Assembly (NCBI GenBank): GCA_019637075.1
Contig: JAHBWI010000001.1
Location: 372,001 to 436,000 of the forward strand
From: Nitrospiraceae bacterium
GTDB taxonomy: Bacteria; Nitrospirota; Nitrospiria; Nitrospirales; Nitrospiraceae
Direction: 5' to 3'
Length of the DNA: 64,000 nucleotides
The notes beneath the pieces are model-generated. The model was not told the origin of the DNA. It was given only the letters and a program-made list of their open reading frames with translations, and searched no databases. This document shows, one piece after another, positions 47,705 through 64,000 of the stretch; the first letter of the stretch is position 1, and each line of letters starts with the position of its first letter. The translations under genes and the position numbers were made by a program.

Positions 47705-49660
47705 TTACGCTTCTCCCACACCGTGGCTGACCACGCGGCTCATCCCCTCCTTCCCATCCTCCCCGTCCCCCATCGCGACCGGCCAGGTCACGAGACCCGA
47801 CACGCTGTCGGAGGCACCGACCTTCGTCGCCGCATAGATCTGCGGCAGTTTGTTCGTGCCGTACTTGGAGATGTAGAGGAAGACATGCTCGCGGGCATTG
47901 ACCCGCACCGCCCAGGGATGGAAGTCGTTCTTGTAGAACTCTTCGCAGAGCTGCATCGCGTCCAGACAGGAAATCCCGACCGGCTCGTTCAGCGTATAGT
48001 AGTAATCCAGCGGCAGGTCGTACTCCTCCTGCTTATGGATCGTGATGCCGAATTTTTCCGGATTGCGCACCATCGGCGTGTGGCGGTAGGCCACGAAATA
48101 AAACAGCTCGACCGAATGGATGACCGGCTGATTGTCGATGACGAACTGCCGCGTCTCCAGCGCCTCATCGCGCGTCTCGCCGGGGAACCCGTAGAACGCC
48201 ATCACGTGGTTCCAGATCCCCGCCTTGGCCGCCTGATGCAGATTGTTCTGGATCACGCTCTTCCGCGCATGTTTGTCCATGAGATTCAGCACGCGCTCGT
48301 TCGCCGACTCCATGCCGTAGTACAACGTGCAGCAGCCGGCCTTGGCCGCCAGATCCCAGATGGCCTGATCCTGTAAGGTCTCCTCGAAGCGGATCAGGGT
48401 CGTCCATTTGATGCCGACGTTCTGGTCCACGAGCATCTGCGAGACCTTCTTGAACAACGCCGGCGGATAGGACTCGTCGGAGAAGAGGAAATGCCGGCAG
48501 TTGTACTTGTCGCGCAGCGCCACGATCTGCTCCACCACATGGTGGGCCGGCATGCCGCGATATTGATCGAAGTAGCCCTGCCCGTGGTCGCAAAACGTGC
48601 AGCGGCCCCAGTAGCAGCCACGCGTCGCGAGGTAGGGAATGATCCGTTCCGGCACGAAGTAGTGATCCAGCGGCAACCCGTCGAAATCCGGGAGCGGCAG
48701 CGCCTGGGTCTTCTCGGTGTAGACCTCAGGGTTCAGATGCACGCCGGTTTCGTCCCGGTGCATGAGGTTCGGCACCTGGTTCATCGTCCGGTCGCCGTTC
48801 AACGCCTCGATCAGCCAGAGCAACGCATGCTCGCCTTCATACAGAATCGCGCTATCGAACACTTCGGTGAAGAACCGTTCATGCTTCGGCAGTTCTTCCT
48901 GCAATCTGGTGATCACGTTGCCGCCCACCACCACATGGATATGCGGGAAGCTCTCCTTGATCATCCTGCAGAACGTCAGGCCCGCCATGAGCTGCATCTG
49001 CGTGCCGATCGACATGCCGATCACTTCAGGCTTTTCCTTCGCCACGGCCGGCAACACGAGCTGGTTGCAAATGTCGCGGTAGACGTTCACTTGCTCGTCT
49101 TCCAAACAGGCGAACACTTCCTGGGAGACACCGGGCCGGTACCCGAGGTTGCTCTCCATCGGATAGAAGACCAACGAGGCCGGGAAATAGGCGGCGGAAA
49201 TATACTGCATCACCTCGCGGAAGGTATTCAGCGCCCACTCGAGCTGGTCCGCCTCGTAGAAGGCCTGTCCTCGCACAATGCCCTTGGCCCGCTCGGCCCG
49301 CTCGGCCAGGTCGAAGACTTCCACATGTGCGAAATGTTCCAGGCAGGCCTTCTGCGCCGCTTCTTGTTCAGACAGTTCCCTGGAGGTCTCCGCCGACTCC
49401 AACGCCTTCAGCTGCATCCCCTGCCTGGCCTTGGCCCAGATCAGGAAATCGACGCTGAAGAAGTGGTCATACATCTCGATGTTCACGTCCTTCTGCACGA
49501 CCTGGTGGCCGGCCTGACGCAACACCGAGGTCAGGGACGGCAGCGCGAGGTAGGGCGCCGTCGGCACCCACTCGGGCGGGAACAGCAGCATCACCTTCCG
49601 CTTGCGCGTGTCGAGATTCGTCTGCTGCGGTGAAGCCTTTATTTGGACCAGTTCACTCAT
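47705..49660 (-). CDS. B12-binding-domain radical SAM protein, paralogue 1
   Basis: 651 residues. The N-terminal cobalamin-binding-like region starts at LLFPPEWVPTAPYLALPSL and resumes, after about 130 inserted residues, at GMSIGTQMQLMAGLTFCRMI and VVVGGNVITRL. The DxHxxG cobalamin-ligand motif is not seen. The radical-SAM core has RGCYWGRCTFCDHGQGY near residue 348, followed by FSDESYPPALFKKVSQML and YYGMESANERVLNLMDKHAR. A C-terminal helical domain ends the protein. Closely related to the next gene; together they form a duplicated pair with unknown substrate. Confidence 0.85.
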   Translation of the reverse strand: MSELVQIKASPQQTNLDTRKRKVMLLFPPEWVPTAPYLALPSLTSVLRQAGHQVVQKDVNIEMYDHFFSVDFLIWAKARQGMQLKALESAETSRELSEQEAAQKACLEHFAHVEVFDLAERAERAKGIVRGQAFYEADQLEWALNTFREVMQYISAAYFPASLVFYPMESNLGYRPGVSQEVFACLEDEQVNVYRDICNQLVLPAVAKEKPEVIGMSIGTQMQLMAGLTFCRMIKESFPHIHVVVGGNVITRLQEELPKHERFFTEVFDSAILYEGEHALLWLIEALNGDRTMNQVPNLMHRDETGVHLNPEVYTEKTQALPLPDFDGLPLDHYFVPERIIPYLATRGCYWGRCTFCDHGQGYFDQYRGMPAHHVVEQIVALRDKYNCRHFLFSDESYPPALFKKVSQMLVDQNVGIKWTTLIRFEETLQDQAIWDLAAKAGCCTLYYGMESANERVLNLMDKHARKSVIQNNLHQAAKAGIWNHVMAFYGFPGETRDEALETRQFVIDNQPVIHSVELFYFVAYRHTPMVRNPEKFGITIHKQEEYDLPLDYYYTLNEPVGISCLDAMQLCEEFYKNDFHPWAVRVNAREHVFLYISKYGTNKLPQIYAATKVGASDSVSGLVTWPVAMGDGEDGKEGMSRVVSHGVGEA

Positions 49661-49679
49661 TGTAGGAGAACGAACCTTG

Positions 49680-49785
49680 GTATCTCGTTATTCGTGAAGC
49701 GTATCTCGTGATCGAAGCCGTATCTCGTCTGTCGTATCTCACGGGAACAACCATCCGCCGCCGGAGGCCTTTTTCAACATCCTGC
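49680..49785. repeat. GTATCTC short repeats between the two radical SAM genes
   Basis: GTATCTC words start at 49680, 49701, 49720 and 49734 with irregular spacing; the first three continue as GTATCTCGT. They are followed near 49769-49786 by GGCCTTTTTCAACATCCT, which looks like the end of a dispersed extragenic repeat. Spacing and length rule out a CRISPR array. Confidence 0.55.
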
Positions 49786-51684
49786 TCACATTTTTCCCGC
49801 CAGGGTCGGCGTCGATCCACTGAGCTTTGCCGCCCTGTACTGCAGGTCCGGCAGCTTCTGCAGCCCGAACTTACAAATGTAGAGAAAAATGTACTCGCGA
49901 ATGTAGAGGCGCAAGTCCCAGCCGGGATTGTGATTGCGCTCGAATTCCTCGAAGACCCGTTCAGCTTCTTCGATGCTCAACCCCTGCTTCACGGTGAAGT
50001 AGTAGTCGAGCGCCAGGTCCCACTCGGGATTCTTGTAGGCCGTCACGCCGAACTTGTCCGGGTTCTTCGCCACCGGGTTATGCCGCCCCAAGTCGAACGT
50101 GCCGAACCCTAGCGAGTGGACGTAATCCTTGTTCTGTTCCAGGAACTCCACCGACGACCAGGCCTCCTCGCGCGTCTCGCCGGGAAAGCCGAAGAACCCC
50201 ATGCAGTGGTTCCAGATGCCGGCGTCCGCCGTGTACTTCAAGTGCTTGGTCATGATCTCGGTGGTCGTCGCCTTGTCCATGAGCCTCAGCACCCGCTCGT
50301 TCCCGGACTCATACCCGAAGTGCAGGTACTTGCAGCCGGACGCCTTGGCGTCCTGCCAGACCTGATCCTCGAGCAGGCTCTTCTCGAACCGCATGTGGGT
50401 CGTCCAGAAGATATCCATCTTGCTGTCGATCAAGCCGCGCGTGAGCTTCCTGAACAGGGCCGGCGGGTAGGATTCGTCGGTGAAGTGGAAATGCTTCGCC
50501 CCGTACTTATCGCGCAGGTGCTGAATCTCCCCGAGGATGTCCTGGATCTTCTTCGACCGGTAGCCGGCCGTGTAGCCTTCGCCGTGGTCGCAGAACTCGC
50601 AGCGGCCCCAGTAGCAGCCCCGTGTCGCGAGATAGGGCAAGATCTTCGTCGGAACGAAATACTTCTCCAGCGGCAGCCCGTCGAAATCCGGCGGCGGCAG
50701 GCTGTGCATATCTTCCGCATAGCTGGTGGCGGAGACATGGACGCCGGTCGCATCCTTATAGATGGTGTTGGGTACGTCGGCCAAACTCTGCTTTGCCCCT
50801 ACCGCGGAGACGAGCTGGACGAAGGCCGTCTCCCCTTCATAGACCACGGCGCTGTCGAAATATTGAAACAGGGGCGATTGCGGGAGTACGTCGCGCAGGC
50901 GCGTGACGGTGTTGCCGCCGATCGTCACGTGGATCCGGGGGAAGTGCTGCTTGATCAAGGCACAGAAGGTCATGGAGGAAAAGAGCTGCTGCTGGAGCAC
51001 GATCGAGATGCCGACGACGTCCGGCTTCTCCGCCTCGAGCACCGGCTTCACCAACTGCTCGAACACGTCGCGGTAGACGTTGACTTGGATGTCGTTCACC
51101 GCCTCGATGACCTCAGAGGAGACGAACACCTTATAGGAGAGGTCGGTCTCCATCGGCGGCATGCAGATCCGGGCCGGGGCATAGACCAGCGAGATGACCG
51201 CCGTCACTTCGCGGAAGACTTGAATGGCCCATTCCAACTGATCGATATCGTAGAAGACTTCGCCGCGAACGATCGCCTTGGCCTTCTCGGCCTTCTTGAT
51301 CAATTCGTCGATCCGCTGGCGGCTGATGTCGCAGAGCTGCAGCTGAAGATCCTGCTCCCATTCCTCCAGATCGCGCTTCTTGGCCAGCTTCCGCAGCCGG
51401 TCGAGCTGTTGCGGCACCTTGCGCAGGACCTTCTTGAGGAAGTCCTCGCTGAAGTACCAGTCCCACATCTCCAAATTGATGTCTTTCTGGACGACCTGGT
51501 GGCCGGCTTGGCGGAGGACCGAAGTGAGGGACGGGAGGCTCAGATAGGGTTCGGAGGGGAACCAGTCGGGCGGGAAGATCAGCAAGACCTTCATCTTCCG
51601 GCCGGCGGCGGCTTCGGACGACCGGCGCTGGAGCATGATCAGCTCGCGCGAGGCCCGCTCGCCTTTGTTGTACTCAACCCGCAT
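49786..51684 (-). CDS. B12-binding-domain radical SAM protein, paralogue 2
   Basis: 632 residues with the same layout as its neighbour: PDWFPSEPYLSLPSLTSVLR at residues 39-58, a long helical insertion, GISIVLQQQLFSSMTFCALI, then the cluster motif RGCYWGRCEFCDHGEGY. LHFGYESGNERVLRLMDKA and MGFFGFPGETREEAW follow. A basic 30-residue N-terminal extension precedes the domain; the ATG at about 51594 (MKVLLIFPP) is an alternative start. Substrate unknown. Confidence 0.85.
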   Translation of the reverse strand: MRVEYNKGERASRELIMLQRRSSEAAAGRKMKVLLIFPPDWFPSEPYLSLPSLTSVLRQAGHQVVQKDINLEMWDWYFSEDFLKKVLRKVPQQLDRLRKLAKKRDLEEWEQDLQLQLCDISRQRIDELIKKAEKAKAIVRGEVFYDIDQLEWAIQVFREVTAVISLVYAPARICMPPMETDLSYKVFVSSEVIEAVNDIQVNVYRDVFEQLVKPVLEAEKPDVVGISIVLQQQLFSSMTFCALIKQHFPRIHVTIGGNTVTRLRDVLPQSPLFQYFDSAVVYEGETAFVQLVSAVGAKQSLADVPNTIYKDATGVHVSATSYAEDMHSLPPPDFDGLPLEKYFVPTKILPYLATRGCYWGRCEFCDHGEGYTAGYRSKKIQDILGEIQHLRDKYGAKHFHFTDESYPPALFRKLTRGLIDSKMDIFWTTHMRFEKSLLEDQVWQDAKASGCKYLHFGYESGNERVLRLMDKATTTEIMTKHLKYTADAGIWNHCMGFFGFPGETREEAWSSVEFLEQNKDYVHSLGFGTFDLGRHNPVAKNPDKFGVTAYKNPEWDLALDYYFTVKQGLSIEEAERVFEEFERNHNPGWDLRLYIREYIFLYICKFGLQKLPDLQYRAAKLSGSTPTLAGKM

Positions 51685-53094: not shown

Positions 53095-53850
53095 CGCGTA
53101 GCGGCGGGATGCGAAGAGGAGCGAGGAAAGAGTTTCGGGTCCTGTCGTCGATCAGCCCTCGCGTGCTCGCACCCCAGCCCGGTGTGGGGTCCCCCGCTCC
53201 GCACGCCAGGGCACCCAGATCGGCGCCACCCGAAACTCTTTATCTGTTGGTGAGGGCAAGGCACTACCCTTGGCTAGGAAATGAAGGAGATGGAGCATTG
53301 GTGATGCGTGTTCGTTCTCACCATTCAGTGATTCACTGCGCGCGCACAAGGCTCCGGTTCGACGACCTCGGTTCCAACCTGGCTGCCGGCGCTAGGCCAC
53401 GGGCTTGTTGGCCGCCGCTCGCATCATCTGCCGTTGGCTGCGCCGGCGGGTTTTATCCCGTCGCCAACAATCGGCAGGCTCCGGGTTGAACGAGTTCTGT
53501 ATAATGCTCGCCACCTATAGAATAGGCTGTCCTGATCTCGGCGGACCGGCGGAAACACAGGACCCGATGGCCGCGCCGACAGCCAGGCACCTGTCCGGCT
53601 AGACCACTTCACCCACTTCTCTGACAGTTCCTGCCCGACAGGAAATGGATGCATTTCAGGCACCACCGCAGCGATTAAATTACGATTGATTTCGTAGACC
53701 GTAAGGCGTAGGAAATGACGCGCCATCCTTCGGAGCACGTTGATTTCACAAACGAAGACAACTCACTAGTCGATCCCCACGGGATGTATATAGAAACACG
53801 CCAAACAATTGATATGTTAGACGGCTGAACCAACTGAAACAGGTGACATC
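53095..53850. other. Gene-free boundary region
   Basis: Over 750 bases without a supportable gene. It contains palindromic repeat copy X (53127-53241) and a TTCCTG/CAGGAA hairpin near 53627-53643. Base composition shifts towards A/T over the last 150 bases before the helicase gene, marking the likely edge of transferred DNA. No integrase, tRNA or direct repeat was found at the edge. Confidence 0.5.
53127..53241 (-). repeat. Structured palindromic repeat, family 2, copy X
   Basis: Perfect 14-bp terminal inverted repeat: 53127-53140 (AAAGAGTTTCGGGT) with 53228-53241. A central ACCCCA/TGGGGT hairpin lies at about 53171-53190. Its reverse complement is homologous to 44903-45008, sharing CGGGTGGC on the left and GACAGGACCCG on the right. 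It lies 32 bases past the stop of the YD-repeat gene. Confidence 0.72.
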
Positions 53851-56800
53851 TTGAGCGAGCGGGCAGCATTGACCTCGGAACCGATGAAAGCTATTCGTCT
53901 TGTCGACTATCTGCTACGGCTGGCGACTCTTCGCACAAAGCTCACTCGGGACATTTCCGAATACGAGAAAGTTCTATGGATATCGGACGTTCCGCAGGAG
54001 CGATCTTGCTTCACGCAGGCGTGGGGACCTGACGAGGAACATGAGTTAGACGAATGGATGGAAGTGACAAACAGGCGCGAGCCAGAACTGCCAACCGTCC
54101 CCCATCCGTGCAAAGACTGGGTAAACCCATCGGCGCTTCGCAACAAGGACGATTTGCCGGAACTCTTCCCGGAGATTACACGACAAATACAGAATCCTGA
54201 TTGGTGGGAAGGATCGGACCAGCCAGAGACAATCCCTCATACCGAACGCCTTGAGGATCATCAGGAGGTTTCACAAGCATGGAATCGCTATGTTGAAGGC
54301 AAATGGTTGCCTTGGACGGAGGAACACAACTCATGGGAAAAGGTCCACAAGATCTACTGTAGCCTTTTCGCTATTCACCAGGCACAACTCCGCCTTGGCG
54401 AGGAATACGAACTCGTGCATGGGGTTGGTCTACTGACGTGGCAGACGCCAACCGGCCAACGCGTCCGACGTCACATAGTCGTTGCAGATGCCATTCTGGA
54501 TTTTGAAGCTCGCTTGGGTAAGTTCACTGTTCGTCCTCACCCTGACGGTGCCAAGCTTCGGCCTGAGCTCGATATGCTGGATATCGAAGAGCAACCGACA
54601 CGCGCGGAGGAAACTGCGAAGGCCTCATTAGCCATCGCCGAAGACGATCTGTGGGACAGAGGTTGCGTGGAAGGCGTCCTTCAGGTTCTGGCACATTCCC
54701 TCAATTCAGAAGGTGTTTACGACGACTCACTGGAAGCAAAGAACTCCCATGCAACGGCGAAGCCTATTGTGGAATTCGCCCCAGCATTGATCCTCCGGAG
54801 ACGCACTGCCAAAGGCCTCACCGAAACCCTGCAACGCATAAGGGAGCAGCTCGAGCGTGGCCAAGACCTACCTCGCGAATTCGCCGACTTGGCAGAGATG
54901 CGTTCCCAGGATAGTTACGAGCCCAGTGATCGGTCTGAGGAAGTTAGCCAAGAATCTGCCCGTGACATCTTCTTCCCCAAACCATCAAATGAGGAGCAAC
55001 GCCGCATTGTCGAAAAAATTCAGTCATCAAGCGGCGTACTCGTGCAAGGCCCACCGGGAACGGGCAAATCTCATACGATTGCCAATCTGATCTGCCATTT
55101 GCTTGCTACAGGACGGCGCACACTAATCACAGCAAAGACACCCCGAGCACTACAGGTGCTCGAAAGGCTTGTCCCCGAGGAACTCCGTCCCCTCTGCATC
55201 AACCTGCTTGGCAGCGGCCTCGATGAGCGCCGCTCCCTCGAATCTAGTGTCGGCGGCATTCTGCGAAAGAACGATGGTTGGAGCACCGACTTGGCCACCC
55301 TTGAGCGTACGAACCTAGAAAACAACCTGCGAGCCCTCCGCGAGGAAAGAACCCGCGTCAATCGGCGCCTCCGCGACATTCGCGAATCCGAGACTCATAC
55401 TCAGTCGATTGCAGGAGGCGCTTATCGTGGGACGGCCGCCAGAATCGCCGAAGCCGTAAATCGTGACCGGTCTGCATACGAATGGTTCATGGATTCTATA
55501 CCTTCGGAAAAGGCTTGCCACGTCTCCACAAACGACCTCCTTGCCATTCTGGAGGCTCTTCGCCGCTTTCCAACGGAAAAGCGCGAGGAATTAGCGCTTG
55601 CATTGCCCGAGGCATTGCCATCCACTGAGCGCTTTACTGATCTCGTACGGAGTGAAGCTCAGGCGATAGTAGACGAGCGGCTCTCTGAAACTGGCGCCGA
55701 TGAGCCCATCGCAAATCTGCTCGCAAAAAGCAATTCCGTAGCCATCGAATCGATTTGTGCCACTCTATCCACTTTTCGCGATACCCGCAAACGATTGCTG
55801 TCTAGGCCGCATTCTTGGATGAATGAAGCCTTACGTGATATCACGAGCGGCGACTTGTCCTTGTGGCATGAACTTCTACGTGTAACGAAAGACGTAATTG
55901 CGTCCATCGAAGAACTCGTTACGGTAGCGGACAACACCAGCATCGACTTCCCGGGTACTACTGACATGCGAACGTTGCTTGACGACGCCCGCAAACTCAA
56001 TCAACACCTGCAAAATGGCGGAAGTCTAGGTTGGGGCGTCTTTCGGCCCAAGCCAGTAAAAGAGCGATTGTACATCCTTCGATCTGTGAAGGTGGGTGGA
56101 CGTCCTTGCTCAACAGTCGAGCATTTCTCGACTCTTGTCGATGCCCTGCATGTACGCATTGAATGCGGGAAGGCATGGGGATTTTGGGAAGGCCGAACCG
56201 AACAAGTTCAAGGCCCATACGCTCTCCAATTGGCAGCTCTCAAGTCGCTGCGTGAAGCGCTCGAAAATGCCTTGGCTGTCGAGACACTCCTCGTCCGGTG
56301 CCGTGAAGCACTAAAACAATGCCCGGACATGCACGAGCCCACGTGGGCCGACGAAATTCAAGTTGGGAAAACCGTTTCATCATGCCGCCTTGCCTTAGCC
56401 CGCATCCGCAAACGCCTTGCCACTGAGGAAATCCATTCTATCGACGTTGCGCTTTCCCGCATAGCCGCCACAAAGAATGCGCACCCGGTAGTGAATGATT
56501 TGCTTAAGGCTATTCGCCATCGCGACGGAGATGGCTTCGCTCGGTGCATCAATACAATTCAGGAATTGAAGAAACAGCAGCAGATCCTTCAGAAAACGGA
56601 CCATGACTTTTCTGAGCTCCGAGGATTGCTCCCACACTTTATGAAGTCATTGGAACACACTTGTTCCGAATCGCACTGGGAAACAAGAATTCGAGATATT
56701 AGCGCTGCCTGGCAATGGGCGCAGGCCCGCCATTGGATTGAGGATTACATTCGGCAGGAAGATGCTCCGGCGCTTGCAAAGCGCGCAAAACAGATCGACG

Positions 56801-58713
56801 ATGAAATAAACGGCGTTATTGCAAAACTTGCAGCCATTCAGGCCTGGGCATTCTGTTTCCAGAGAATGGAAGAGCCACATCGCCGACACATGGAGGCGTG
56901 GTGCAAGCATGTCAAATCGCTAACCAAAACCGGCAAAGGCAAACGTGACTTTCGTAATCGTCAAGCGGCACAGCGTAGCTTGAATGAATGCAAGGATGCG
57001 GTTCCTGCATGGATAATGCCTTTGCACCGCGTTTGGGACACAGTGGATCCAACACCAGGCATGTTCGACGTAATTATAGTAGACGAGGCTTCTCAGTGCG
57101 GGTTTGAAGCATTGCCCCTTTTGTATTTGGGGAAAAAGATCTTGATTGTCGGAGATGATAAACAGATCAGCCCCAGCGGGGAATTTCAAGATACAACGCC
57201 GATCAACAAGCTGCTGGACGAATATTTATATGATTTCAATTTTAAAGAGTACTTCGATGTCAATGTTAGCCTTTTTGAGCATGGAAAACTCCGCTATGGA
57301 ACTCGGCGCATTACGTTACGCGAGCACTTTCGCTGCATGCCGGAGATCATTCGCTTTAGCAACGATCTTTGCTATTCCGACACACCACTAATTCCCCTAA
57401 GGCAGTATGGCCCGGACCGCCTTCCGCCCCTGAGGCAAGTTTTTGTGGACGGTGGACATCGCGAAGGGTCGAGCAACAGAGCAATCAACCGGCCAGAAGC
57501 CGAGGCGATTGTTGAAATGATTCGGCAACTGTGCGGTGATCGCCGGTATGATGGCAAGACCATGGGCATAGTAGTACTTCAAGGCGAAGCTCAAGCTGCT
57601 TTGATCGAGCATCAATTGCTTGAGAGACTGGGTGCTGAGGAAGTGGAACGGCGGCGCCTGGTCTGCGGCAATCCATACAGCTTCCAGGGTGACGAACGCG
57701 ACATCATGTTCTTGTCGCTGGTGGCAGCCAGCAACGAAAGAATTGGGGCTCTGACAAAACCGTCAGATGAAAGACGCTTCAATGTAGCGGCCAGCCGTGC
57801 TCGTGACCAGATGATTCTATTCCACTCACTGACATCTAACGACCTTAGCGCATCGTGCCTTCGACGACGATTGCTGGAGTTCTTCGAGAGCACGGCGCCA
57901 CGGCAAATTGCTGGAATTGAGCGGGACGAACTAGAGCGGCGGGCAGCGCAGGATAATCGGAGACTTGTGAGTGCCCCAGCACCCTTTGAAAGCTGGTTCG
58001 AAGTGGACGTCGCTCTTGAACTTCTGCGCAAGAACTTTACAGTGCTTGCCCAATACGAATTTGCTAGCAAGCGGATCGATCTTGTAGTTGAAGGCGGGCA
58101 GGCGCGTCTGGCCGTCGAATGCGACGGCGACCAATGGCATGGCTCTGACCGTTACGAGACAGATATGCAACGCCAACGCCAATTAGAGCGCTGCGGGTGG
58201 GAATTCTTCCGCGTAAGAGAAGCAGCATTCTATGCCAACAAAGCAAATGCGCTTCTCGGTTTATGGGGGGCATTAGACGCGAGAGGCATCTTACCGAACT
58301 TACGCCCTGAAGGCTCGTCCCGTGAAGATAATTTGGAAACGCGAAGAACGAGCACATCGGACTTCAATGATGATGCAGTTGACGATGGCTTGAACGAAGA
58401 TGAAAGCTATCTATCTGGGAGGTCAGACGAGGACTTCATAGAATCAGGTCGTCGACCTGAAGAGATAACTGCGGGCGAGATTCAAGACGCCATTATTCAG
58501 GCTCTAAGAAATCGCCCCAACCTGTCGTGCACATTGCATTCGCTCACCACCCGCGTACTCAAGGAGCTAGGTGTGATGACACGTGGAAAGCCCCGTGAGG
58601 CTTTTGAGAGACGAACCATGAGGTCTGTCAGCATCCTTGAGAAGCGCGGCCAGATCGAGACCTACAAAGCCAAGAACAGGAGGCTGAGACTTCTCCAGCA
58701 AGAAATGGCGTAA
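53851..58713 (+). CDS. Giant SF1 (UPF1-like) helicase with C-terminal PD-(D/E)xK nuclease; candidate defence protein
   Basis: 1620 residues. The N-terminal ~390 residues are unrecognised. Helicase motif I is QGPPGTGKSHT (about 397). A long helical insertion (about 450-1050) precedes motif II IIVDEASQ (about 1074), motif III VGDDKQISPSG, REHFRCMPEII (about 1156), and motifs V/VI in NPYSFQGDERDI and FNVAASRARDQM (about 1272-1320). A Vsr/DUF559/MTES_1575-like nuclease follows (about 1385-1470), with RIDLVV and VECDGDQWH supplying the acidic residues. The C-terminal ~80 residues look like a winged helix. Start is a TTG with AGGTGA upstream; an ATG 11 codons on is possible. Helicase plus nuclease in one chain and A/T-richer codons fit a mobile anti-phage gene. 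No methyltransferase partner is seen. Confidence 0.8.
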   Translation: MSERAALTSEPMKAIRLVDYLLRLATLRTKLTRDISEYEKVLWISDVPQERSCFTQAWGPDEEHELDEWMEVTNRREPELPTVPHPCKDWVNPSALRNKDDLPELFPEITRQIQNPDWWEGSDQPETIPHTERLEDHQEVSQAWNRYVEGKWLPWTEEHNSWEKVHKIYCSLFAIHQAQLRLGEEYELVHGVGLLTWQTPTGQRVRRHIVVADAILDFEARLGKFTVRPHPDGAKLRPELDMLDIEEQPTRAEETAKASLAIAEDDLWDRGCVEGVLQVLAHSLNSEGVYDDSLEAKNSHATAKPIVEFAPALILRRRTAKGLTETLQRIREQLERGQDLPREFADLAEMRSQDSYEPSDRSEEVSQESARDIFFPKPSNEEQRRIVEKIQSSSGVLVQGPPGTGKSHTIANLICHLLATGRRTLITAKTPRALQVLERLVPEELRPLCINLLGSGLDERRSLESSVGGILRKNDGWSTDLATLERTNLENNLRALREERTRVNRRLRDIRESETHTQSIAGGAYRGTAARIAEAVNRDRSAYEWFMDSIPSEKACHVSTNDLLAILEALRRFPTEKREELALALPEALPSTERFTDLVRSEAQAIVDERLSETGADEPIANLLAKSNSVAIESICATLSTFRDTRKRLLSRPHSWMNEALRDITSGDLSLWHELLRVTKDVIASIEELVTVADNTSIDFPGTTDMRTLLDDARKLNQHLQNGGSLGWGVFRPKPVKERLYILRSVKVGGRPCSTVEHFSTLVDALHVRIECGKAWGFWEGRTEQVQGPYALQLAALKSLREALENALAVETLLVRCREALKQCPDMHEPTWADEIQVGKTVSSCRLALARIRKRLATEEIHSIDVALSRIAATKNAHPVVNDLLKAIRHRDGDGFARCINTIQELKKQQQILQKTDHDFSELRGLLPHFMKSLEHTCSESHWETRIRDISAAWQWAQARHWIEDYIRQEDAPALAKRAKQIDDEINGVIAKLAAIQAWAFCFQRMEEPHRRHMEAWCKHVKSLTKTGKGKRDFRNRQAAQRSLNECKDAVPAWIMPLHRVWDTVDPTPGMFDVIIVDEASQCGFEALPLLYLGKKILIVGDDKQISPSGEFQDTTPINKLLDEYLYDFNFKEYFDVNVSLFEHGKLRYGTRRITLREHFRCMPEIIRFSNDLCYSDTPLIPLRQYGPDRLPPLRQVFVDGGHREGSSNRAINRPEAEAIVEMIRQLCGDRRYDGKTMGIVVLQGEAQAALIEHQLLERLGAEEVERRRLVCGNPYSFQGDERDIMFLSLVAASNERIGALTKPSDERRFNVAASRARDQMILFHSLTSNDLSASCLRRRLLEFFESTAPRQIAGIERDELERRAAQDNRRLVSAPAPFESWFEVDVALELLRKNFTVLAQYEFASKRIDLVVEGGQARLAVECDGDQWHGSDRYETDMQRQRQLERCGWEFFRVREAAFYANKANALLGLWGALDARGILPNLRPEGSSREDNLETRRTSTSDFNDDAVDDGLNEDESYLSGRSDEDFIESGRRPEEITAGEIQDAIIQALRNRPNLSCTLHSLTTRVLKELGVMTRGKPREAFERRTMRSVSILEKRGQIETYKAKNRRLRLLQQEMA

Positions 58714-58789
58714 CGAGGTGCCATACCGAGTGGTAATCCCGCGATGCTCAAAAACGACCAGTGATGAAATAGAAAGATAAAGAGAAACC

Positions 58790-58807
58790 GGTGCCAGGAA
58801 TCATTTC
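58790..58807 (+). repeat. REP-like element GGTGCCAGGAATCATTTC, copy 1
   Basis: The 18-base word lies between the helicase and SGNH genes. Related words occur at 60026-60047 (two mismatches) and as an inverted pair at 60553-60600. Such short words often belong to transposase-associated REP elements; no transposase of that type is in the window. Confidence 0.5.
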
Positions 58808-58841
58808 AGCCCCCGAGGCGATTCCGACACCATCTCTCCAT

Positions 58842-59894
58842 CTAGCCTCTTTGGGGATTCGTTCGGTTCTTCTTCGATACTTTCCTTGCAGGACCCCTTT
58901 TGGATGAGCCCCTACTCCCCTTAGGCTTTTGCTTACGGTCTGCCGTCAGAGTCCTGGTTCCCGGCTTTGATGAGCGGATCGGCACAACCCCGAATGCCTG
59001 CTCATACTTACTTGCCAGTATCTTAAATCCATCGGTATCGGGATGCATATCGTCAAAGAAAGGATACTTGGTGGTCTCTCCTCGGCAATCGAGAAATCGT
59101 ACGTTCGGAAACGCTTTAGCAACTGCCTTAATGGAGTCGCTCAAATGATCAATGATAACTTTCACGACTGCGTTCCAGGTCGTCTTGGGGTAGCCCATTT
59201 TCTGGAGGTATTGCCCGATATATTTCCCGTCTTTATAGGTCGGTCTTGGGAAGTCATACGCATAGCAGATAGTATGAAGGGAAGGAGCAGCCATCGCGAT
59301 CTGGTTTAAGAGTGCCCGATAGCCTTCGGCGATATCCCGCAATAGGCCGACTCCCTGTTCTGAAAGACATTTTTCAATCGGACGGTTTGAGTCGTATGTC
59401 TGAACAAGTTCACCGCGCGCCAGTGACTGCTGCAAGTCGTTGCCCCCACCGCTGAAGATAAACCAGTCTGGGTTGAATCGAGGGATCTGCTCCAAATATT
59501 CCTTGGTCGCCAGCATCTGGCTCAGCGTATCCCCCCAATGCGCAATATTCTTAACTACGACTCGGTTGTTCGAATGTAACCGATCAGCGATGGCTTCTGG
59601 CCACATGATCGGAGGCAAGTTAAACCAAGAATCTCCTTCGGCAAGTATTCGTTTTAGGCCGGTTGGGACGAGTGCTGCCAGTTGTCGCTCCTGTTCGGTC
59701 CTCTTTGCGAAATAGAGTTCACGGTCAACGTCATACCCTGCCGGCGGAGCATCCCTCAATGCGCCGGGCTTAAACCTCACACGGACCATCGGGCATGTGG
59801 GGTCACGCTCTAAAACCTTTCTGTAATCTGCGGCTTTCAACGCTCCACTCTTCAATCTTGCATCAAACTCTGCAAACGAAAGTTTTGCAGCCAT
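58842..59894 (-). CDS. SGNH/GDSL-fold hydrolase
   Basis: 350 residues. Block I is AEGDSWFNLPP (about 86), the oxyanion block GGGNDL near 152, and the catalytic Asp-His block DDMHPDTDGF near 283. No signal peptide. The C-terminal ~50 residues are Lys/Arg/Ser-rich and probably disordered or nucleic-acid binding. AGGAGG is placed five bases before the ATG. It converges on the helicase-nuclease gene and shares its A/T-richer codon use, so it belongs to the same accessory segment. Likely an esterase or lipase acting in the cytoplasm. Confidence 0.82.
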   Translation of the reverse strand: MAAKLSFAEFDARLKSGALKAADYRKVLERDPTCPMVRVRFKPGALRDAPPAGYDVDRELYFAKRTEQERQLAALVPTGLKRILAEGDSWFNLPPIMWPEAIADRLHSNNRVVVKNIAHWGDTLSQMLATKEYLEQIPRFNPDWFIFSGGGNDLQQSLARGELVQTYDSNRPIEKCLSEQGVGLLRDIAEGYRALLNQIAMAAPSLHTICYAYDFPRPTYKDGKYIGQYLQKMGYPKTTWNAVVKVIIDHLSDSIKAVAKAFPNVRFLDCRGETTKYPFFDDMHPDTDGFKILASKYEQAFGVVPIRSSKPGTRTLTADRKQKPKGSRGSSKRGPARKVSKKNRTNPQRG

Positions 59895-60182
59895 ATGACC
59901 TCCTAAAATGATCCAAGATTGGATTGGCTCTCAGCAATAGTGCCAGAAATTACACTCTCAATGAAGAGGCGCACGAGCCATGCAGCCTACCGCAATCTGA
60001 GCAACCGACGATTCGAGGAGAAGGGAAATGGTGCCAGCTATCATTTCTTACCCCCTAAACTCGCCCACTAAGCCACAACAATGCGTCCATTTAAATGAGT
60101 ACTCCGAGCTGCGGAAGTTCAATATACTTCTCCCAGCAATCTCAACTTCTAGAACAACCATGACAATGAGAAAGGGAGGCTT
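59895..60182. other. Short gene-free region with REP-like copy 2
   Basis: Contains the degenerate REP-like word at 60026-60047 and presumably the divergent promoters of the SGNH and membrane-protein genes. No clear -35/-10 pair was found. Confidence 0.4.
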
Positions 60183-60512
60183 ATGACACCCACAGATCTG
60201 GCGCTCTTAGGATTGATAGCCGCTCTCGCCTACTATCTGGCGAATGCCAGACTCACTCTGTATGGGTGGCTCCTGACCAAGGATATGGAAGAACCACGTA
60301 AGGACAAAATCTGGAATCAGATCTATTGGATTACTCGGTTTCTCATTGTCACTATTCTCGCTGGGTTTGTCCTGTTTAGTGCCGGGGCACTTCTCCCCTC
60401 CCCGCCGGCAGATGTTCTACAGTTTGCGCGTGGCATTTCCCTTCTGATTATGGCGGGAGTCGTGATAGGGCTACTGATTTTTCACGCTATGATTATTGAA
60501 AGACCCAGGTAA
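60183..60512 (+). CDS. Small three-helix membrane protein
   Basis: 109 residues with three hydrophobic helices (about 5-22, 48-70 and 80-104) and a charged loop (TKDMEEPRKDKIW) between the first two. AGGGAGG precedes the ATG. No family recognised. It follows the accessory island and may belong to it. Confidence 0.72.
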   Translation: MTPTDLALLGLIAALAYYLANARLTLYGWLLTKDMEEPRKDKIWNQIYWITRFLIVTILAGFVLFSAGALLPSPPADVLQFARGISLLIMAGVVIGLLIFHAMIIERPR

Positions 60513-60552
60513 CCCGAGAGATGACCTTCTAAGAAAGCCCAAAGAGGAAATC

Positions 60553-60600
60553 GTGTCAGGAATCATTCTCTGGGTACGAATCGATTCCTGGCACCATTTC
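60553..60600. repeat. Inverted REP-like pair, copy 3
   Basis: GTGTCAGGAATC (60553-60564) and GATTCCTGGCAC (60583-60594) are inverted copies of the REP-like word with one mismatch, forming a stem around an 18-base loop. It lies 40 bases past the small membrane protein stop and could act as a transcript-end stem. Confidence 0.6.
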
Positions 60601-61486: not shown

Positions 61487-62374
61487 CTAGGCCGCGAACC
61501 GATCCTTTTGATCCCAGGCGAGATGCTCGAATTCGGCCTCATCCAGTTTGAGGTGCGCCAGGACCGCCTCGCCGATGGCAGCCCACTCTGGAGAATCCTT
61601 GCCCTTCCGCAGTCGGTGACAAATGCAATCCACCATCACCAAGACCGCAATCACGTTCCGGATATTGTCCTCGACCGGGGTGAGCGTGGGCGCCGCCCCG
61701 CCGAACAGCTCGCGAGTCCGGTGATGATTGAGGATGATCGTGCCGATTTCTTCCGGCAGATGCCAATGCCGGCTCATGAGCGCGCCCACGACGGCATGAT
61801 CGGTATTTAAGTGCGCGTCCTCGAGGTCCGTCAGCGGCTGATCCGGCTTCTTCTCCGCCTCCCGCAAGACCTCCGCATACTTCGGATAGCGTTGCAGCAG
61901 AATCGGCATGCCGCAATCTCGAAAGAGCCCGAGCAAATACGCTTTGTCCGCCGGCATGATGGGCACCTCGCGCATCACACTCGACAGGACCAGCGCCGTG
62001 TCATTCGCTTCGTCGAAGAGGCGGTCGATTCCCGCTTGATTATCCCCGCCCTGAATCGCGCTCTTCATCGCCAAAGCAATCACGACGTTGACGACATTGG
62101 GCATCCCCAGCAACAACACCGCCTGGCGCAGCGACTCGACCTTTTTCGGCAACCCAAACAAGGGAGAGTTGATGGTTTTTAACACCGCCGCCGCCACACT
62201 CAGGTCCCGTTCGATAATGCGAGCCACAGCCTCCACGTTGGGATCCGGCTTGGCCCGCTCGCGATTGATCTCAAGCAGCGTCGCCGGTTGAGGCGGCAAC
62301 GTCACCCCCTCCAGGATCTCCATGGCAGAATCTTCCGTCAGCTTCCGCAATACCACCGTCTTGTCCTGTTTCAT
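61487..62374 (-). CDS. HDOD-domain protein
   Basis: 295 residues. An HDOD domain spans about 18-220: LPPQPATLLEINRER, RIIERDLSVAAAVLKTINSP, LFGLPKKVESLRQAVLLLGM and LFRDCGMPILLQRYP. The HD metal pair is altered, as usual for HDOD proteins, which are regulatory rather than hydrolytic. AGGACAGG precedes the ATG. No attached receiver or GGDEF domain. Likely a signalling adaptor. Confidence 0.88.
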   Translation of the reverse strand: MKQDKTVVLRKLTEDSAMEILEGVTLPPQPATLLEINRERAKPDPNVEAVARIIERDLSVAAAVLKTINSPLFGLPKKVESLRQAVLLLGMPNVVNVVIALAMKSAIQGGDNQAGIDRLFDEANDTALVLSSVMREVPIMPADKAYLLGLFRDCGMPILLQRYPKYAEVLREAEKKPDQPLTDLEDAHLNTDHAVVGALMSRHWHLPEEIGTIILNHHRTRELFGGAAPTLTPVEDNIRNVIAVLVMVDCICHRLRKGKDSPEWAAIGEAVLAHLKLDEAEFEHLAWDQKDRFAA

Positions 62375-62514
62375 CGCCTGTCCTTGTCAACGATGCAATA
62401 TCGTTATTTATCGGTTCAGAAATGAATGTCCGTGGTCCAATTCCCCTGGCCACATTATTTCGCCATAGACACTCCCTTTTTGACAAAACTAAATTGATTT
62501 TTTGCAGGCACGGC

Positions 62515-62720
62515 TCAGCACAGGCACAGCACGCCGGCGAACGCTTCACGGAGTCGCTCTTCGTTCTGACCATTCCGCGCGAATCTTTCGGACCTGCTCC
62601 AGCGACTCAAACACCTACCCAGTGAGCGCTTCGGTACGATGGAGCCGATTGAACCGTTCGATGAAGGCATTCCGATCCGGTTTCCCTGGTTGGATAGGCC
62701 GGAGTTCGATCCCGCGTTAC
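62515..62720 (-). pseudogene. IS3-family transposase (OrfB) remnant
   Basis: On the minus strand GIELRPIQPGKPDRNAFIER followed by FNRLHRTEALTG matches the DDE-core end of IS3-type OrfB. A stop then interrupts, VFESLEQVRKIRAEWS continues after it, and NEERLREAFAGV follows in another frame. The piece is about 200 bases, with at least one stop and one frameshift, and no intact ends. Confidence 0.78.
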
Positions 62721-62900
62721 GCACCCAGCCTCTAGGCTGGTACAACCGGGGCAGGTCAGCACCACGTGCACTGTATCCATTTCGCCCGCGCTGAATCAGA
62801 TCTGGTACTATCCCCCAGCCTGTGTCTGGTGACCTGAGCATGACCTCAACGGCACGGATGGCGCGTGACCTGAACCACACAACAGCCGGAGTACCAGTTC

Positions 62901-64000
62901 GTGGACGACAAGACCCTGGAGAACACGACCACCGCAACGTCGCCTGCAGGCCTCCTGGCAGCATGGCACAACCTCCCGCTGTATGGACGCATTGTGATCG
63001 GCCTGGTCTTCGGCGTCCTGGCAGGGCTGATGTTGGGCAGCCAGGCGGCCGTCCTGGCGGTGCCGGGGAAGCTGGTGCTGCGCCTCTTGGGTGCGCTGGC
63101 GCCGCCGCTGATCCTTGCGGCAATCGTGCACACGTTCATGACGACGCGCCTCGGCGGTCCGCTTGCAGCTCGCCTTCCATGGCTGTTGTTCTTGAACACG
63201 TTGGTCGCGATCACCGTGGGACTGACCGTCGCCAACATCATCCGGCCGGGACAGGGTGCGGGGCTTACGCCGTCGCCATTGCCCACCGAGACTGCGCATG
63301 CGGGGAATCCGCTGGTCGTCTTTTTCGACAATGTGCCCAAGAGCTTGCTGGGACCGCTGGGTGACGATGGGAAAGTCATCGGGGTCATCTTCGTCGCCGT
63401 GGCATTCGGGATGGCGTTACGCGATGAACGCCACCGTCCTCTCGGCACGGTCGAGCACCTTGTCGAACTCGTTCTGGAGTCCCTAATCAAGATTTTGCAT
63501 TGGATCATCGCCGTGGTCCCGCTGGCCGTCTTCGGCATCGTGGCCAGCATCGTGGGCACGGAAGGCTTCGCGCAGTTCCAGGCGCTGGGCGTCTTTGTGC
63601 TGAGCGTGCTGCTCGCGCTCGCGATCCAGGCGGCCTATTACCTCGTGCGCATCCGCTTCGGGTCTTGGGTCTCCCCGGCATTGTTGATACGCGGAGGACG
63701 GGACGCGCTGGTCATGGCCTTCTCCACCGCCAGTTCAACGGCCACGATGCCGGTGACGTACATCGCACTGAAGGAACGCGTGGGCCTGCGTGAGCAATCC
63801 GCCAGAATGGGAGCGCTCGTCGGCGCGAATTTCAACAACGACGGCACCGCGCTCTACGAGGCCATGGCGGCGTTATTTATCGCCCAAATGATCGGAATGG
63901 ATCTCAGCCTGTCTCAGCAAGTGATGGTGGTACTGACCAGCGTCATTGCCTCGGTCGGCGCCGCTGGAATTCCAGAAGCAGGCCTCGTCACGATGACCAT
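62901..64000 (+). CDS. Dicarboxylate/amino acid:cation symporter (partial)
   Basis: At least 366 residues; the C-terminus lies beyond the right edge. DAACS-family transporter: multiple hydrophobic helices starting with IVIGLVFGVLAGLMLG, the serine-rich re-entrant motif FSTASSTATMPVTY, GANFNNDGTALYEAMAALFI (family NxDGT motif), and ASVGAAGIPEAGLVTM (second re-entrant loop). GTG start with GGAG nine bases upstream; an in-frame stop closes the frame ten codons earlier. Imports C4-dicarboxylates or acidic amino acids with Na+ or H+. Confidence 0.9.
   Translation, partial: MDDKTLENTTTATSPAGLLAAWHNLPLYGRIVIGLVFGVLAGLMLGSQAAVLAVPGKLVLRLLGALAPPLILAAIVHTFMTTRLGGPLAARLPWLLFLNTLVAITVGLTVANIIRPGQGAGLTPSPLPTETAHAGNPLVVFFDNVPKSLLGPLGDDGKVIGVIFVAVAFGMALRDERHRPLGTVEHLVELVLESLIKILHWIIAVVPLAVFGIVASIVGTEGFAQFQALGVFVLSVLLALAIQAAYYLVRIRFGSWVSPALLIRGGRDALVMAFSTASSTATMPVTYIALKERVGLREQSARMGALVGANFNNDGTALYEAMAALFIAQMIGMDLSLSQQVMVVLTSVIASVGAAGIPEAGLVTMT

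Follow-up and report, generated by a model that had tools for sequence, protein, structure and literature searches.

A stand-alone UPF1-like helicase fused to a Vsr-like nuclease in a defense hotspot of a Nitrospiraceae bacterium, probably a one-protein defense

Introduction

Among the described helicase-nucleases, CnuH of the type III-B CoCoNuT systems has a UPF1-like helicase interrupted behind Walker A by a large helical insertion and fused directly to a Vsr-like nuclease (PMC11090510). CoCoNuTs need the McrB/McrC-type proteins CnuB and CnuC, and also CnuD and CnuA, while the winged helix of CnuH is N-terminal and Sul7s-like. In the MTES_1575 giant proteins, a single chain contains an SF1 helicase, a Vsr REase and, at its C-terminus, a winged helix, and a modification-independent defense has been predicted for them (PMC3710099). 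In Hachiman HamAB, a sensor helicase controls a nuclease (PMC12278908), which is analogous in outline to the protein described here and implies no kinship; HamAB consists of two genes and uses a different nuclease. PADLOC-DB furthermore lists PDC-S37 (PDLC05009) as a single-gene phage-defense candidate; our literature search returned nothing informative on PDC-S37 or on the related family ProA.

Here, we describe a helicase-nuclease gene in a 64,000-nucleotide stretch of a Nitrospiraceae genome, referred to as the window throughout. A first-pass annotation had proposed that this gene and a convergent SGNH hydrolase gene next to it form a defense module. Location, neighborhoods, and distribution support the helicase-nuclease part of this proposal, but not the pairing with the hydrolase. 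The gene can be read as a one-protein defense against phages or other invading DNA, to which we assign a probability of roughly 0.78. The additional statement that no described system with this exact pair was known was too strong, as CnuH, the MTES_1575 giants, Hhe, ProA, and PDC-S37 are close precedents.

Protein Architecture

All features of the locus are collected in Table 1. The 1,620-residue open reading frame is real and intact, and its TTG start is credible because a TTG at the aligned position and the same AGGTGA box are conserved in genome G063, which belongs to another genus and in which the upstream DNA can still be aligned. Promoter and terminator scans gave no signal above shuffled sequences.

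Table 1. Positions of the helicase-nuclease gene, its domains, and its surroundings in the window.
Feature	Position	Strand	Basis
Tandem B12-radical-SAM core genes (47705-49660, 49786-51684), left hotspot anchor	47705..51684	-	Adjoins helicase also in G063
AGGTGA ribosome-binding-site-like box, 4 nt before TTG	53841..53846	+	Conserved in L036
Stand-alone SF1 helicase-Vsr nuclease, 1,620 aa, TTG start	53851..58713	+	ORF list, Pfam
Residues 1-378, predicted stalk/1B beta-barrel region of UPF1-like helicases	53851..54984	+	AF2 model m8ec0d1e4d6e9, pLDDT 86; VIA-align
RecA1, first part, Walker A QGPPGTGKSHT at 399-409	54985..55218	+	Pfam AAA_11; motif conserved
All-helical insertion in RecA1, ~590 residues, 457-1046	55219..56988	+	AF2 model
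RecA1, second part (DEAS 1078-1081, GDDKQ 1101-1105), and RecA2 (QGDERD 1279-1284, NVAASRAR 1311-1318)	56989..57900	+	Pfam AAA_12; model m5c776a1fd247
Vsr-like MTES_1575 nuclease, residues 1383-1475 (D1410, E1423, D1425, H1430)	57997..58275	+	Pfam 1.7e-25; residue conservation
Predicted C-terminal winged helix, residues 1535-1618	58453..58704	+	AF2 model, pLDDT ~95 over most
Local REP-like word, copy 1	58779..58805	+	
SGNH (GDSW) hydrolase, 350 aa, neighbor not partner	58842..59894	-	Pfam Lipase_GDSL_2 1.5e-12
Local REP-like word, copy 2	60019..60045	+	
Predicted membrane protein, 109 aa, same low-GC3 segment	60183..60512	+	Gene call, GC3
Local REP-like inverted pair	60541..60600	.	
HDOD protein and DAACS transporter, interval before right anchor	61487..64000	.	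Gene calls

Pfam recognized an SF1 helicase in two separated parts, with AAA_11 starting at residue 379 and AAA_12 covering residues 1138-1323, and an MTES_1575 REase (PF18741) scoring 89.3 bits against a cut-off of 38.2. These were among the models named in the first-pass annotation, of which DUF4011 had no match. The motifs GPPGTGK, DEAS, GDDKQ, QGDERD, and NVA-SRAR, corresponding to SF1 motifs I, II, III, V, and VI, are invariant in 29 sequences. The nuclease had been described as having intact acidic residues, which agrees with its conservation: D1410 is invariant across 29 relatives, and E1423, D1425, and H1430 are nearly so.

AlphaFold was run on two alignments, one of 49 and one of 53 homologues, and the resulting models had mean pLDDT values of 86 and 84. 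In VIA-align, positions 10-1200 of the model of residues 1-1200 superimposed on residues 295-751 of UPF1 with a Z of 20.7 over 331 residues at 3.6 Å, and Dna2 and IGHMBP2 aligned as well; residues 1030-1620 (model m5c776a1fd247) matched IGHMBP2 and UPF1 with Z values of 20.9 and 20.3. With Z values of 20-21 over 320-410 residues for UPF1, IGHMBP2, and Dna2, the models point to a UPF1-like fold including a stalk/1B region and an insertion in RecA1. Foldseek alone gave weak scores for the 1,200-residue model, diluted by its helical arm. The earlier reading of a UPF1-like helicase split by a helical insertion of about 600 residues is borne out by the model at residues 457-1046, which we take to be the position of UPF1's small 1C insertion. 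The N-terminus had been called unrecognized, and residues 1-378 have no sequence match in PADLOC or the PDB, but they model most likely as the stalk and 1B region preceding RecA1 in the UPF1-like clade. The C-terminal winged helix had been missed; in the model, a low-confidence linker lies between it and the nuclease. Sequence and model together show an intact UPF1-like SF1 motor with a predicted stalk/1B region, a very large helical arm in RecA1, a Vsr-like nuclease, and a predicted C-terminal winged helix in a single protein, which is encoded alone in a defense hotspot.

Comparison with Described Systems and Proposed Mode of Action

The window protein matched the PDC-S37 profile with 184 bits, a family without a curated cut-off. 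Both are collinear from Walker A (profile position 298) to approximately position 1427 of 1550 and have the same large insertion and nuclease, whereas the N-terminal 378 residues of the window protein are unmatched and the scores are modest. All 29 relatives matched the profile, the best with 3e-81. The helicase-nuclease C-terminal half is also homologous to Hhe (NF042953, 6e-34) and ProA (NF058533, 6e-58), with scores of 116.7 bits against a cut-off of 2,000 and 196.4 bits against a cut-off of 1,500, respectively. An assignment to DUF4011/Hhe was rejected on the missing DUF4011 match and a score far below the family cut-off, and all PADLOC and NCBIfam matches of the window protein stay far below family level. 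With MkoA and MkoC of Mokosh, it has in common the UPF1-like helicase core (MkoC, 2.7e-41); Mokosh carries other nuclease modules, not MTES_1575.

The fusion of a UPF1-like helicase, interrupted by a large helical insertion, with a Vsr nuclease is the one seen in CnuH. Unlike in CoCoNuTs, neither a McrB-type GTPase nor a McrC homologue is present among the listed window neighbors, none of the other Cnu components was found beside the gene, and the winged helix is located at the other end of the chain. Like the MTES_1575 giants, the window protein combines an SF1 helicase and a Vsr REase with a winged helix at the C-terminus, but it has no HEPN or transglutaminase domain (no Pfam match, E up to 1). 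In the features that were compared, the protein falls outside Hhe, ProA, the CoCoNuTs (no McrBC), and the MTES_1575 giants. It would act in a similar way but is best filed as a divergent relative of PDC-S37, Hhe/ProA, and CoCoNuT III-B CnuH, within a broad helicase-Vsr kind without a dedicated model. More tentatively, and at slightly less than even odds, it may represent a widespread stand-alone defense branch for which neither PADLOC nor NCBIfam has a model. Its members would be free-living CnuH relatives in which one chain senses, translocates, and cleaves, with no need of McrBC, a methyltransferase, or a partner, and the window protein would be housed in a newly recognized core defense hotspot beside the radical-SAM pair.

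In such a one-protein defense, the 1B region, the arm, and the winged helix would keep the protein bound where invading DNA exposes nucleic acid in single-stranded or forked form. Powered by ATP hydrolysis, the motor would translocate in the 5'-3' direction, the usual polarity of the UPF1/Dna2 clade, and either the movement or the loading of the substrate would relieve an inhibition of the tethered nuclease, which could then cut the incoming strand. With no methyltransferase gene next to that of the helicase, self would probably be spared via the structure of the substrate rather than via methylation. DNA appears to be the somewhat likelier target because Vsr enzymes cut DNA, with RNA being possible, as proposed for the related CoCoNuTs. 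An abortive system that cleaves transcripts instead of invading DNA would fit the architecture common to CnuH and the window protein; we consider it a serious but rather unlikely alternative, as Vsr-type nucleases are mainly DNA enzymes and a weak, motif-only search detected no McrB signature among 721 ORFs near 57 relatives. If the one-protein defense is indeed protective, it would be among the simplest helicase-nuclease defenses, in which a single polypeptide, present in many phyla, acts as sensor, motor, and nuclease, and the family would be one that escapes current models. It would also allow one to ask how a motor of the UPF1 type, equipped with a giant arm, distinguishes invading from own nucleic acid without methylation.

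Genomic Location and Neighborhoods

In the window genome (G000) and in G063, the helicase gene lies between the same core genes, the radical-SAM pair on the left and a YdjM-like hydrolase on the right. On the scale of the window, the latter is found at 65764-67506, beyond the window end and 15 kb away. One or both radical-SAM genes were matched in 55 of 61 relatives. We followed the interval in the window, from 47705-51684 to beyond its end, and in the loci L036, L075, and L093-L106; in other genomes of G063's genus it spans 5.7-23.7 kb. There, the radical-SAM end holds a Dsr1-like SIR2 protein with a 913-aa partner (1e-49), a SIR2-nSTAND/ThsA-like protein (6e-22), an Mrr type IV restriction enzyme (2.6e-90) together with a RES toxin, a zeta toxin, an Mrr_cat nuclease with an IS3-like element, or a RelA_SpoT protein, and in G058 an S8 subtilase fused to PatG domains (L093, 4166-6016). 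Related genomes therefore carry different defense cargo between the same core flanks. The interval is a variable defense and toxin-antitoxin hotspot in G063's genus, and as the interval of this sister genus holds other defense cargo, the window gene lies in a defense hotspot. It resembles the core defense hotspots described in Pseudomonas (PMC10250203) and is a place to look for further defense genes in this lineage.

Beyond this hotspot, 253 ORFs adjoining 51 full-length homologues of other taxa matched 169 and 122 PADLOC families in two batches (1e-10), counted as families, not proteins, and from crudely called ORFs, compared to 10 families for 47 housekeeping proteins of the window as a control from one genome. 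They include JetA/C/D (Wadjet), BrxA/B/HI (BREX), DrmD (DISARM), AriA (PARIS), SspE, mREase_IV/Mrr, and type I RM. The homologue on the Acinetobacter plasmid p3ABAYE (L189, 6383-11113) lies on the same strand as a BREX-1 operon and begins 63 bp past its brxL, a homologue on a Sphingobium plasmid adjoins a restriction endonuclease, and a relative from Cloacimonadota is preceded by a gene for a 1,571-aa protein that matched NACHT/STAND weakly. The Sphingobium homologue is annotated as DUF3320, though this Pfam family did not match the window protein. Tabulating neighbors, as the first-pass annotation had suggested, yielded defense genes around relatives but no repeated SGNH co-occurrence. Clustering of 721 ORFs near 57 relatives revealed no recurrent partner gene; the clusters were generic families (SF2 helicases, recombinases, ABC proteins, radical SAM, short-chain dehydrogenases) and a FAS-like/SIR2 context in three genera.

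Members of the family are also plasmid-borne, with 44 records at 1e-30, and homologues at the same threshold are present on 24 Acinetobacter plasmids. Integrases and a relaxase-like gene are found near relatives in G032 and G134. These observations would suit a system directed against plasmids rather than phages, or an element in the competition between mobile elements, which we nevertheless regard as distinctly unlikely, given the chromosomal hotspot of the window gene and neighbors that are mostly anti-phage systems. In G218 (L003), an upstream 90-aa ORF, encoding an excisionase-like helix-turn-helix protein, runs into the start of the helicase gene, which suggests translational coupling.

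Distribution, Transfer, and Gene Loss

Relatives were found at 1e-30 in 20 of 270 genomes of the class and in one of 29 genomes of G063's genus, and full-length relatives are present in many phyla. While the nearest ones, in G218, G063, and G131, are 69-80% identical to the window protein, relatives from Sumerlaeota (67%), Bryobacterales (65%), and Cloacimonadota (55%) group with it in the tree, which argues for horizontal transfer. Insertion sequences interrupt the gene in both G063 (L036, 8670-9916) and G131 (L037, 2724-3700); the two elements differ, and each has terminal inverted repeats and a target duplication. Two independent insertions among the closest relatives and the sparse occurrence indicate that the gene is dispensable in those lineages. 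A phage origin of the gene was rejected, as only four partial hits were obtained among phage records.

The fold, closest to UPF1, IGHMBP2, Dna2, and Sen1, could also belong to a chromosomal repair or RNA-surveillance enzyme with a Dna2- or UPF1-like housekeeping role, and in three mycolic-acid actinobacteria of Gordonia/Williamsia (L118, L141, L155) the chromosomal surroundings of the gene are conserved, with a SIR2-like gene and a giant FAS-like gene next to it. For a gene that is sparse, patchy, broken by insertion sequences in close relatives, horizontally spread, and found in defense hotspots and on plasmids, we find such a role improbable. The Gordonia/Williamsia branch may have another role, and its context, along with the loss of the nuclease motif in a few relatives (L119, L146), implies that not every member need be a defense nuclease. 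In the three Gordonia/Williamsia proteins, the nuclease histidine is lost.

For the window protein, domains and context probably indicate a defense function. This reading is supported by the hotspot location, the defense-rich neighborhoods elsewhere, the sparseness, the spread across phyla at 55-67% identity, and the inactivations by insertion sequences.

The Neighboring SGNH Hydrolase and REP-Like Words

The helicase-nuclease and SGNH ORFs were both confirmed as convergent neighbors, 128 bp apart, and the latter as a hydrolase with the blocks GDSW, GGGND, and DMHPD and a basic tail. The A/T-richer codon use reported for the two genes is likewise real, with GC3 values of 0.55 for the helicase, 0.54 for the SGNH gene, and 0.53 for the 109-aa gene vs 0.85-0.87 in the radical-SAM pair and 0.77-0.79 in the HDOD and DAACS genes. 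Low GC3 is also found in the helicases of G063, G131, and G218, all without an SGNH homologue anywhere in their genomes. No SGNH gene was found near the helicase in 79 further relatives with flanks of up to 10 kb. Among the 270 genomes of the class, 20 have the helicase and three the SGNH gene, and both occur in the window genome only (Fisher p 0.21, even counting this ascertained genome); within the phylum, the SGNH gene is present in 5 of 396 genomes. A two-gene module, for example a sensor helicase-nuclease unleashing a membrane-attacking SGNH effector, is hardly credible against the lack of co-occurrence in 270 class genomes and 79 loci, on which the partnership was rejected, and against a convergent, not co-transcribed arrangement, despite the adjacency, the same low GC3, the local repeats around the SGNH gene, and rhizobial SGNH relatives fused to a caspase near trypsin-like and C1 peptidases. 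The SGNH gene would rather have come along on the same foreign segment as a passenger with no relation to the helicase-nuclease.

REP-like words had been said to flank the pair. Three to four of them are grouped around the SGNH gene and the gene for the 109-aa membrane protein (58779-60600), but none precedes the helicase gene. They exceed chance (3 found vs 0.06 expected). The 12-mer TGGCACCATTTC occurs twice in the whole genome, both times at this locus, and a genome-wide REP family was ruled out because the exact word is found nowhere else in the genome; the REP-like 18-mer was absent from viral contigs.

The SGNH protein begins with a module of approximately 50 residues (59744-59894, minus strand), of which no second copy was found in its own genome. 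The module is common to a Rhizobium caspase-SGNH fusion, and the corresponding loci are L187 5719-7629, L186 5719-6969, and L043 2015-2500. Genes for trypsin-like and C1 peptidases and for a YEATS-associated-helix protein lie near that of the Rhizobium fusion, and the module has the appearance of an adaptor within a protease/hydrolase conflict family.
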